Part shown: one piece after another, positions 18,651 through 21,903 of the stretch
Layout: each line of letters begins with the position of its first letter
Numbering within the stretch: position 1 is the first letter of the stretch
NCBI GenBank assembly: GCA_023265135.1
Contig: JAHFUM010000003.1
Location: 1 to 64,000, forward strand
Origin: Nitrosarchaeum sp.
GTDB taxonomy: Archaea; Thermoproteota; Nitrososphaeria; Nitrososphaerales; Nitrosopumilaceae
Length of the DNA: 64,000 nt
Direction of reading: 5' to 3'
Position numbers and translations under genes: made by a program
Notes under the pieces: model-generated
Database searches by the model: none
What the model saw: only the letters and a program-made list of their open reading frames with translations
Told to the model about the DNA's origin: nothing

Positions 18651-19700
18651 CTAATTTAATTTTTTATTGAATTCTTTGAGGAATGCTTGAATTTTTGGTT
18701 TTGGAATTACTGCACCGCATGCTTTATCATGTCCACCGCCAGAACCACCAAGTTCGGTTGCAAGAAGATTAACAATTTTACCTAAATGAATTTTGCAAGA
18801 TCTTGATCCTCTGACAGATACTGCATAGATACCATGATCAACTCTTTCTTTGTATGCAACACCCACATCTTTTCCAGACAGTCCTAAAACAAAATTAACA
18901 GCACCACTTGCTCCAGAATCAAGAATTTCCATATATCCAATATTCTTCATAGTCTTCATTCCTTTTTTTACTTTAGCGATTATTAGTGCTAGTTTCTCAA
19001 CTTGGATTTGTGCAAATTCAAATGTATTTGGAATTTCATGTGGGAATTTTGAATCAGCCAATTCCTCTACCAAATACAACAAATAGTCTGGATCTTTTTG
19101 GTGCCCAACTATATTGTAAGTAAGAACAGTTGCATTAATCAAAGCAAATTGTCTATCATATATTTGAAGTAATTTAGAACCAATTGGTCTGTCTTCCATA
19201 TAGTCGGTAATGGCAGCACATGCTGCAATGAAAGGAGCGTGATCAGAGAGTTTTGATTTGAATGCATTGTAGACCTGAACAGTAGTACATTCATTGATGT
19301 CATGTATCATTTTAACTTTAATTTTTTCCAATTCTTTAGTAATTTTCGGATCAATATCATGATGATCAATATAGGTTACAGCAACATGATTCTTTTTTAA
19401 AATCCTTAGAAGATCAACAAATTCATCTTGATTTTTTTTACTAAGACCTAAATCGCAAATATATAATGATTTTAATTTTTCATCTGCACAAACTTTTTGG
19501 ATAGCCTCCATCTGTCCAGGGTAATCAACTAAAATAGAATCACCACCAAAGGCTTGTCTAATTAATGCTGCAGAACTAATACCATCAGCATCTTCCTTGT
19601 GAGAAATACAAACAACTTTTGTTCTTTGTTGAATTGTCTTGATTTTTGTTACAATTTTTTTCTTAACAGTCTTTGTTGTTTTTATTTTAGATACGACCAT
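18651..19700 (-). CDS. DHH-family phosphoesterase (RecJ/NrnA-like)
   Basis: 349 residues. After a lysine-rich N-terminal extension (about 1-25) the DHH motifs appear in order: HKEDADGISSAA, ICDLGLS and the eponymous IDHHD; the DHHA1 domain ends in GGSGGGHDKACG, which binds the substrate. Such enzymes are Mn-dependent 3'-5' or 5'-3' exonucleases or oligonucleotide phosphodiesterases; archaeal RecJ-like proteins associate with the replisome. I cannot choose between nanoRNase and RecJ roles from sequence alone. It converges on the RidA-like gene. Confidence 0.85.
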   Translation of the reverse strand: MVVSKIKTTKTVKKKIVTKIKTIQQRTKVVCISHKEDADGISSAALIRQAFGGDSILVDYPGQMEAIQKVCADEKLKSLYICDLGLSKKNQDEFVDLLRILKKNHVAVTYIDHHDIDPKITKELEKIKVKMIHDINECTTVQVYNAFKSKLSDHAPFIAACAAITDYMEDRPIGSKLLQIYDRQFALINATVLTYNIVGHQKDPDYLLYLVEELADSKFPHEIPNTFEFAQIQVEKLALIIAKVKKGMKTMKNIGYMEILDSGASGAVNFVLGLSGKDVGVAYKERVDHGIYAVSVRGSRSCKIHLGKIVNLLATELGGSGGGHDKACGAVIPKPKIQAFLKEFNKKLN

Positions 19701-19740: not shown

Positions 19741-19941
19741 TTAATTTTGCTTTGATTCTTGAGATTCTTTTTTTATGCTTTGATTAGCCAAATATGTAGA
19801 ATTTACAAATGCATCATAAAATGATGCACCATTCATCTGAGTTTGAATGTCAATTTCTTGAATTTTGCGTAGTTCATCTCCTGATGCTGTTAATACTAGA
19901 TTATCGAGTTTCTCTAAAAGTTGTCTTTCAGCTGGAGTCAT
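19741..19941 (-). CDS. small protein with a DxQxQxxGxSFYD motif
   Basis: 66 residues. It begins with a helix (ERQLLEKLDNLVLTASGDELRKI) and contains DIQTQMNGASFYDAF followed by a short hydrophilic tail. The same DxQxQxxGxSFYD pattern occurs in the 86-residue gene on the other side of citrate synthase, indicating homologous small proteins. The function is unknown. It lies 40 bases upstream of the DHH gene on the same strand. Confidence 0.65.
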   Translation of the reverse strand: MTPAERQLLEKLDNLVLTASGDELRKIQEIDIQTQMNGASFYDAFVNSTYLANQSIKKESQESKQN

Positions 19942-20054
19942 TTAATCTTTAATTAAAAATAATCATTTATGAGCCAGAGTTGGCATATTAGACTAATTAC
20001 TAAACTTCGTAGACATGATTTCTTGCGAAAATATAATAAAAGATTTCACAGAGG

Positions 20055-21224
20055 ATGTTCATGGAGACAAAAAACACAGGCTTGCGTGGGATTCAGGTTG
20101 CAGATACAAGAATTTCAAATATTGATGGGGAAAAAGGTAAGCTGATTTATCGAGGTTACGATATCTTAGAACTTACAAAAAAATCAAACTATGAAGAAAC
20201 AGCATATTTACTATTACATGATGAATTGCCAACAAAGGAACAGCTATCAGAGTTCAAATCCAAACTAAATGAGGCAAGATGGATTCCCAAAAGAATGCAA
20301 ATCAACATGGGGAATTGGAGAAAAGACGCGGACCCAATGGATATGTTACAGGCATTTGTTGCAGCATTGGCAGGATATTATGATGAGGAATTTGCAACCA
20401 AAGAAGCAAGTTATGAAAAGGCAATCAATCTAATTGCTAAAGTCCCCACAATAATTGCAAGTTGGCAAAGAGTCAGAGATGGGTTAGAAATAATCGATCC
20501 TGATTCAAGTTTAGATCATGCAGCAAATTTTCTGTATATGATGTTTGGAGAAAAACCAGATAAAGAAATTGAGAAGATTTTTGATACATGTTTGATTCTT
20601 CATGCTGAACACACCTTTAACGCATCTACATTTGTTGCAAGACAAGTTGCATCAACTAGGGCACATATGTATTCAGCAATAAGTGCTGCAATCGGGGCAT
20701 TGAGTGGAGAACTGCATGGAGGAGCAAATACAGAGGTAATGAAGATGCTTTTAGATATTGGTACGATAGACAACGTGGTTCCATGGATTAAAGAAAAATT
20801 GAGTAAGGGGGAGAGAATCATGGGAATGGGTCATGCAGTGTATAAAACATATGATCCTAGAGCACAAGTTCTAAAAGAATTATCAAGAAAGCTAGCTGCA
20901 AAAACAGGTGAACCATGGTATGACATTACAGAAAAAGTAGAAACAACTACAATTGCAGAAATAAAAATGCAAAGAGGAAAAGACATCTATCCAAATGTCG
21001 ATTTGTACAGTGCTTCAATTTACCATATGCTAAAAATTCCAATTGATCTTAATACACCAATTTTTGCAATATCAAGGGTTGCAGGATGGGCAGCACATAT
21101 TATTGAAGAAAAATTTGCAGAAGCAGCACCAAAGCCTGCATTATACAGACCAGAAGCAGTCTATGTTGGAAAATATTGCGGACCAGAAGGTTGCGAATAC
21201 GAAGTTCTGGACTTGAGAAAATAA
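20055..21224 (+). CDS. citrate synthase
   Basis: 389 residues, the size of archaeal/Gram-positive type citrate synthases. Visible are GIQVADTRISNIDGEKGKL, the active-site His region GALSGELHGGANTEVMKML, and the family signature GMGHAVYKTYDPRA with catalytic His. It joins acetyl-CoA and oxaloacetate; in an organism with the 3-hydroxypropionate/4-hydroxybutyrate cycle it would feed an incomplete or biosynthetic citric acid cycle. AGAGGA about five bases before the ATG serves as ribosome-binding site; a second ATG two codons in is possible. Methylcitrate synthase belongs to the same family and cannot be ruled out. Confidence 0.92.
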   Translation: MFMETKNTGLRGIQVADTRISNIDGEKGKLIYRGYDILELTKKSNYEETAYLLLHDELPTKEQLSEFKSKLNEARWIPKRMQINMGNWRKDADPMDMLQAFVAALAGYYDEEFATKEASYEKAINLIAKVPTIIASWQRVRDGLEIIDPDSSLDHAANFLYMMFGEKPDKEIEKIFDTCLILHAEHTFNASTFVARQVASTRAHMYSAISAAIGALSGELHGGANTEVMKMLLDIGTIDNVVPWIKEKLSKGERIMGMGHAVYKTYDPRAQVLKELSRKLAAKTGEPWYDITEKVETTTIAEIKMQRGKDIYPNVDLYSASIYHMLKIPIDLNTPIFAISRVAGWAAHIIEEKFAEAAPKPALYRPEAVYVGKYCGPEGCEYEVLDLRK

Positions 21225-21227
21225 TTT

Positions 21228-21488
21228 TTAATTTCTTGTGTTAAGCCACTCTTTTGCTTTAGAGTTCACATCGTGTTTGTATAATACTTCAAAAACCATA
21301 TCATAAAATGAGATGCCTTTTTTTTGTGCCTGTGTATCTAACCAACGAATTCCATCAGCCAGTTCTGGGTCATACGCTGAAAATTCTATAAGTTCATCAA
21401 CCATTTTTGAAAAGAATGTTTGCGACTCTAACATATGTAGATCTTTGAATCTTTGATCATAAGGGCGGGATTCAAAATATATAGACAA
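21228..21488 (-). CDS. small protein with a DxQxQxxGxSFYD motif
   Basis: 86 residues: an N-terminal part with YFESRPYDQRFKDLHML, then an acidic helix region, and DTQAQKKGISFYDMVFEVLYK, matching DIQTQMNGASFYD of the 66-residue gene at eight of thirteen positions. The two genes bracket citrate synthase and both are on the minus strand. No membrane segment, signal peptide or cysteines. A small regulatory or adaptor role is only a guess. Confidence 0.65.
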   Translation of the reverse strand: MSIYFESRPYDQRFKDLHMLESQTFFSKMVDELIEFSAYDPELADGIRWLDTQAQKKGISFYDMVFEVLYKHDVNSKAKEWLNTRN

Positions 21489-21510: not shown

Positions 21511-21903
21511 TTGGAACATGTTTTGTTTTTTGACGGAAATGCAAAGAGAATATCATGGGTAATTCAAACAAATAATTCAAACATAGAGCAAAAAAGAGAT
21601 CATGCCGATATATATTCAGATAAAGTAACAATTCAACAGTCAAAATACATCGGATTGCACGTTGGAATATTTTGGGGCATTGGCACGTTTATTATAAAAA
21701 ATCAGGATATTGTAAAAATAGCAATAGACAATAAACAGATTTTTGAGCATCTTTCATCAGGTCAAAAAAACAATGATGTGTTCATTGAAAAAAGAACTTA
21801 TTTTATAAAACAATTAATTGCACATAGAAAATTGAAAATTCAGTATGAATTTATTTCATCAGATAAAAACTTGGCTGCTAAAATATTATCTAAAACGGTT
21901 TAA
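21511..21903 (+). CDS. hypothetical protein (130 aa)
   Basis: 130 residues that I do not recognise. The central part, YIGLHVGIFWGIGTFIIKNQDIVKIAIDN, is hydrophobic and glycine-rich but reads more like buried strands than a clear membrane helix. It starts with TTG at 21511, 22 bases from the divergent start of the SFYD gene, so the two promoters overlap. Composition is like that of its neighbours. Confidence 0.55.
   Translation: MEHVLFFDGNAKRISWVIQTNNSNIEQKRDHADIYSDKVTIQQSKYIGLHVGIFWGIGTFIIKNQDIVKIAIDNKQIFEHLSSGQKNNDVFIEKRTYFIKQLIAHRKLKIQYEFISSDKNLAAKILSKTV

Follow-up and report, generated by a model that had tools for sequence, protein, structure and literature searches.

A small-protein family linked to the citrate synthase gene of Nitrosopumilaceae and related archaea, with homologues in viral contigs

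CP12, a small regulator of central carbon metabolism with redox-active cysteine pairs, has homologues carried by cyanophages, and these viruses are thought to redirect host carbon with it. Two further small proteins act on enzymes of the oxidative TCA branch. According to PMC8672173, VcdP of Vibrio cholerae (29 aa), which is encoded in a dual-function sRNA, binds and activates the citrate synthase (CS) GltA, and may be specific to the hexameric type II CS of Gram-negative bacteria. AcnSP of Synechocystis (44 aa) modulates aconitase and resembles the N-terminal part of that enzyme (PMC7336809).

In this study, two small proteins, A and B, encoded on either side of a CS gene in the window (the whole 64,000-nucleotide stretch of DNA analysed), were followed across archaeal genomes and viral contigs. 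B is proposed to act on CS in trans, as VcdP does, and its proposed mechanism therefore has precedents in VcdP and, for aconitase, in AcnSP. VcdP is short, bacterial and sRNA-encoded, whereas B is a 68-aa archaeal protein with its own gene beside CS. VcdP is possibly limited to hexameric type II enzymes; the window CS scores above the TIGR01800 cut-off in an NCBIfam scan. AcnSP, putatively like B, is a small protein that tunes an enzyme of the oxidative TCA branch, but it resembles its own target, whereas neither Pfam nor NCBIfam matched B to citrate synthase. With CP12, B shares small size, a putative role in central carbon metabolism and occurrence in viral contigs; however, CP12 is redox-sensitive, and the window A and B contain no cysteine at all, so that membership of the CP12 family was rejected for want of cysteine pairs.

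The locus and the A/B family

The window derives from a 1.8 Mb genome (handle G000) of family f1, which by inference corresponds to Nitrosopumilaceae. The genes concerned are:

18651-19700, minus strand: DHH/DHHA1 (RecJ-like) gene, on the same strand as A and 40 bases downstream of it
19741-19941, minus strand: ORF A, 66 aa, acidic (pI 4.7), predicted three-helix protein, probably a Nitrosopumilaceae-specific duplicate
20055-21224, plus strand: citrate synthase, divergent from A and convergent with B
21228-21434, minus strand: ORF B, 68 aa, acidic (pI 4.75), predicted three-helix protein, probably the ancient CS-linked member
21511-21903, plus strand: orf130, a 130-aa ORF divergent from B

The CS gene matches PF00285 (1.5e-137 in a Pfam scan), and 3 bases lie between its stop codon and that of B. 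The listed 86-aa version of B, beginning with a TTG at 21488, is too long: relatives have in-frame stops upstream, and the conserved part opens with the ATG at 21434, which was taken as the start. A and the DHH gene form a probable operon.

A sequence-only reading of this DNA had described two minus-strand small proteins flanking CS, and the ORFs were confirmed at those positions. It had also pointed to a common motif, DxQxQxxGxSFYD. A and B agree at 8 of its 13 positions, a best 13-mer identity that was reached in 0 of 1000 shuffles of the two proteins (maximum 7). Pairwise BLASTP of the window A against the window B gave no match. Comparison of profiles built from 30 B-type and 25 A-type sequences with hhalign aligned 51 columns with a probability of 97.6 and an E-value of 2.7e-12, and a single B query recovers A positions in several other genomes. 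A and B belong to one family, of which the window genome holds exactly two copies according to the combined profile.

Among named records, those closest to B come from Nitrosarchaeum and Nitrosopumilus. Scans of A, B and 42 A- and B-type members returned no Pfam or NCBIfam assignment; the matches obtained there, and in Pfam and PHROGs scans of 30 B-type members, were weak and mutually inconsistent, and were rejected. Literature searches on A/B proteins, CS regulators and viral auxiliary genes of these archaea, with most subscription papers outside their coverage, did not retrieve the family, and a term search of PMC6563490 gave no mention of citrate. Within the literature searched the family is undescribed; it is real and evolutionarily striking, and the functions proposed below are putative.

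Gene order, distribution and constraint

The linkage to CS that had been suspected from the window recurs elsewhere: B is convergent with CS in 33/33 and 78/78 fetched Nitrosopumilaceae loci (111/111), lies within 300 bp of it in 31/33 and 78/78 (109/111), and is separated from it by a median gap of 9 to 20 bp. A shares the strand of the DHH gene in 27/27 and 68/68 loci, in 25 and 65 of which (90/95) it lies within 300 bp of that gene. It is within 300 bp of CS in 20/28 and 68/72 loci, and where A and CS are 2.4 to 13.7 kb apart, A is still found near DHH. Of the symmetric placement around CS proposed by the sequence-only reading, the half that concerns B stands, whereas A follows DHH. A and B occur on one contig in 95 of the 99 A-bearing genomes, on the same strand and in the same order in all 95, with a median gap of 1295 bp (79 of the 95 genomes, those recovered by the A query); this co-location comparison omits G004, G026, G042 and G097, four of the 107 B-positive genomes, in which no A was found. 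In genome G087, of the same genus as the window, about 13.7 kb lie between A and CS (L093:3200-16900).

Outside Nitrosopumilaceae, in families f3 and f67, B alone, not A, keeps its linkage to CS. The two genes are tail-to-tail with a gap of 35 bp in G524, G531 and G533 and of 15 bp in G470. The gap is about 1.3 kb in five f3 genomes (G315, G460, G535, G539 and G545), and the gene in between encodes malic enzyme in G315 and G460, the two searched against Pfam. When the 28 window ORFs between 8 and 34 kb were compared with nine f3/f67 loci, CS and B recurred in 9/9, a plastocyanin-like ORF in 2/9 and the other 25 ORFs in 0/9. In G370 and G553 (both f3) the B-like gene and CS are on different contigs, and these two B-like genes group together on the tree (91/67).

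The sequence-only reading had left the presence of the motif in relatives to be checked. Of the 121 Nitrosopumilaceae genomes, single-sequence queries detected B in 107 and A in 81; 18 further genomes in which the B query also matched the A position bring A to 99/121, and A is also missing from all 14 genomes without B. The idea of a CS-linked family withstood both of the refuting checks named with it, absence from relatives and lack of linkage to CS elsewhere. The combined profile matched 65 of 398 genomes of the phylum, all of them f1 or f3 except G214, whose match (E 0.0027 over 28 residues) was taken as chance. The B profile matched 40 of 121 genomes of the order, 35 of them strongly (23 f1, 10 f3 and 2 f67); the five weak matches (G512, G513, G515, G516 and G518; E 0.0018 to 0.075) were likewise attributed to chance. 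In the genomes searched, the family was found only in ammonia-oxidiser-type archaea, and A is confined to Nitrosopumilaceae.

B was not detected in the f2 genomes and most of the g24 genomes looked at, where CS is present. All three genomes of genus g15 (loci L255, L256 and L257) have kept CS and lack both A and B; orf130 is close to CS in all three, and DHH in two (L256 and L257). B is therefore not essential to CS, which is retained in f2, most of g24, g15 and g7 with no B detected. In G483, a genome that is 84% complete, B is present and CS was not found. Diverged B-like paralogues were seen at L116:4385-4570, L123:3327-3515, L124:3979-4191 and L128:4854-5051, with CS absent from the fetched stretches; those of L123 and L124 sit among short ORFs and, by eye, that of L128 is near transposase-like ORFs.

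For sequence pairs with dS between 0.1 and 1.5, the median pairwise dN/dS was 0.039 for B (81 sequences), 0.077 for CS (79), 0.080 for DHH (69), 0.123 for RidA (38), 0.203 for A (73) and 0.291 for orf130 (71). B is more tightly constrained than CS. The orf130 value is the highest among the six neighbouring genes tested.

On a 59-row tree, in which many forks are unresolved (69 columns only), a branch with 99/97 support sets A apart from the other rows. In the simplest history, B would be the old member of the family and its link with CS would predate the split of f1, f3 and f67, while A would be a fast-evolving copy of B, duplicated to the far side of CS in the stem of Nitrosopumilaceae, which the DHH operon then took over and which probably acquired a new partner. 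As regards CS itself, g15 and g7, two lineages that have lost B, deviate at 2 and 3 of 152 invariant columns, respectively, with none common to both; the control of 190 pairs gave a mean of 0.12 common deviant columns. CS carries no signature of B loss.

Viral homologues of B

B-like ORFs are present in four IMG/VR contigs: 3300031576_000158, 3300020198_000012, 3300023216_001117 and 3300010939_000064. In 3300031576_000158, the B-like gene is flanked by two ORFs matching consecutive portions of the terminase large subunit (phrog_2, 1.5e-10 and 1.4e-8). The terminase gene of this contig is seemingly split in two ORFs (L294:8848-11653), and the interval also contains a 71-aa ORF and a 129-aa ORF, the latter phosphatase-like by eye. 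In 3300010939_000064, the B-like gene neighbours genes for thymidylate synthase, ERCC4 and PD-(D/E)XK proteins. The analysis of viral loci covered the fetched flanks, and L295 was read by eye, with Pfam searches for three ORFs. A phmmer search of L291, L292 and L293 with the window genes recovered B only, CS and all other query genes being absent. Because CS is missing from the searched stretches of the viral contigs that carry B, the B protein probably acts in trans.

On the tree, the three viral proteins with an intact frame group within the Nitrosopumilaceae B clade (98/91), where their three placements are unresolved. The tree excludes L293, because its B-like frame is broken (L293:550-760) by a frameshift within a run of A that might be a sequencing error. 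Relatives of the 3300031576_000158 terminase were found in 4 of 121 Nitrosopumilaceae genomes and a relative of the 3300010939_000064 thymidylate synthase in 1 of 121, and the B-carrying viruses may perhaps infect these archaea. The terminase relatives mark possible proviruses at G016:C5:42087-42836, G034:C1:1034690-1035241, G006:C1:94702-102146 and G043:C62:5933-6451. A tblastn search of INPHARED phages with B gave no match, and a viral-contig scan with an f3 B gave no relative.

Possible roles of B and A

We tentatively regard B, by analogy with VcdP, as a small protein that tunes CS, a reading to which we give somewhat less than even chances. B would be a small soluble three-helix protein acting in trans, which most likely binds CS, or an enzyme feeding CS such as malic enzyme, and by binding tunes the activity or assembly of its target. 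The oxaloacetate/acetyl-CoA/pyruvate node is the best target, given the linkage of B to CS and, in two f3 genomes, to malic enzyme. Viruses would have captured B because control of this host node helps them. Binding to CS, the direction of the effect on CS and the partner of A are points that we infer. Of the small adaptor or regulator family suggested by the sequence-only reading, the CS-linked small-protein family is real, and its role as an adaptor or regulator of CS stays presumptive. A lineage-limited protein that is more conserved than CS and has viral copies is a directly testable candidate regulator, and B, unnamed in every library used, is a candidate viral auxiliary gene overlooked by family-based annotation. 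At the CS step carbon leaves the autotrophic cycle for 2-oxoglutarate and nitrogen assimilation; that a group of ammonia-oxidising archaea evolved a dedicated valve on CS, copies of which their viruses carry to redirect host carbon, is a bolder idea that we consider unlikely.

The main evidence against CS tuning is the convergent, not operonic, layout and the negative coevolution test; the persistence of CS with no B detected and the viral copies with no CS nearby also count against it. Genes arranged tail to tail are not transcribed together, and for shared function a convergent link is a weaker argument than an operon. Nearly as likely as the tuning of CS is that B is a general hub protein, such as a transcription, translation or cell division factor, which viruses use for a general takeover purpose and whose adjacency to CS is an inherited order without functional meaning. 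The stronger constraint on B than on CS would be expected of a multi-contact protein, and the lack of a CS signature of B loss, the viral copies in packaging or DNA-metabolism neighbourhoods and the conservation of much of the f1 neighbourhood anyway also fit. However, in f3 and f67 that neighbourhood is gone, apart from the plastocyanin-like ORF, yet B remains with CS; moreover, near-complete g15 and f2 genomes without detected B would be unlikely if B were a part of the core machinery. A cis arrangement, with overlapping 3' ends and control at the antisense or terminator level, to which the B protein would be secondary, could account for the constant convergence and the short median gap in Nitrosopumilaceae. 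It seems very improbable in view of the strong purifying selection on B at the protein level, the long gap in the five f3 genomes (with malic enzyme inside in the two checked) and the viral copies with CS absent from the searched stretches.

A and B could also be regulators that bind nucleic acids and descend from ribbon-helix-helix or ANTAR-like folds, a reading that we hold to be rather improbable. In ribbon-helix-helix proteins (CopG/Arc) an N-terminal DNA-contacting beta strand is followed by two helices. The AlphaFold model of B has helices at residues 3-19, 23-39 and 43-56 (mean pLDDT 76.6) and that of A at 3-18, 21-36 and 41-62 (pLDDT 77.7), both with a weak C-terminus. The only recurring fold theme for B is a CopG-type helix hairpin: residues 23-56, a helix-turn-helix hairpin, resemble CopG helices A and B in geometry (VIA Z 4.5; CopG-like BFVD matches at E 1.8 and above), and ANTAR (PF03861) gave sub-threshold matches in 2 of 42 members (best E 0.07). 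However, in B helix 3-19 is predicted in place of the DNA-binding strand, both window proteins are acidic, and no ribbon-helix-helix Pfam match was obtained among the 42 members at E up to 1. Foldseek returned no E-value below 0.99 and VIA no confident fold, helical hairpins matching many proteins. The ANTAR assignment was rejected, a clear match being required. So were DotD (B profile, E 0.003) and RIPK1 (combined profile, E 0.009) from a PDB sequence search, which were taken as chance because the stretches were short and changed with the profile. The EF-Ts N-terminal family (PF25025) was rejected for the window B, which scored 15.4 bits over 17 residues against a curated cut-off of 33.2 bits; 13 of 30 B-type members match it at E up to 1, with a best E of 8.9e-4.

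A role separate from that of B is probable for A, with the DHH protein as its candidate partner. On the other side of B, orf130, for which no Pfam match was found at E up to 0.001, is divergent from B in all 98 loci that have both genes.
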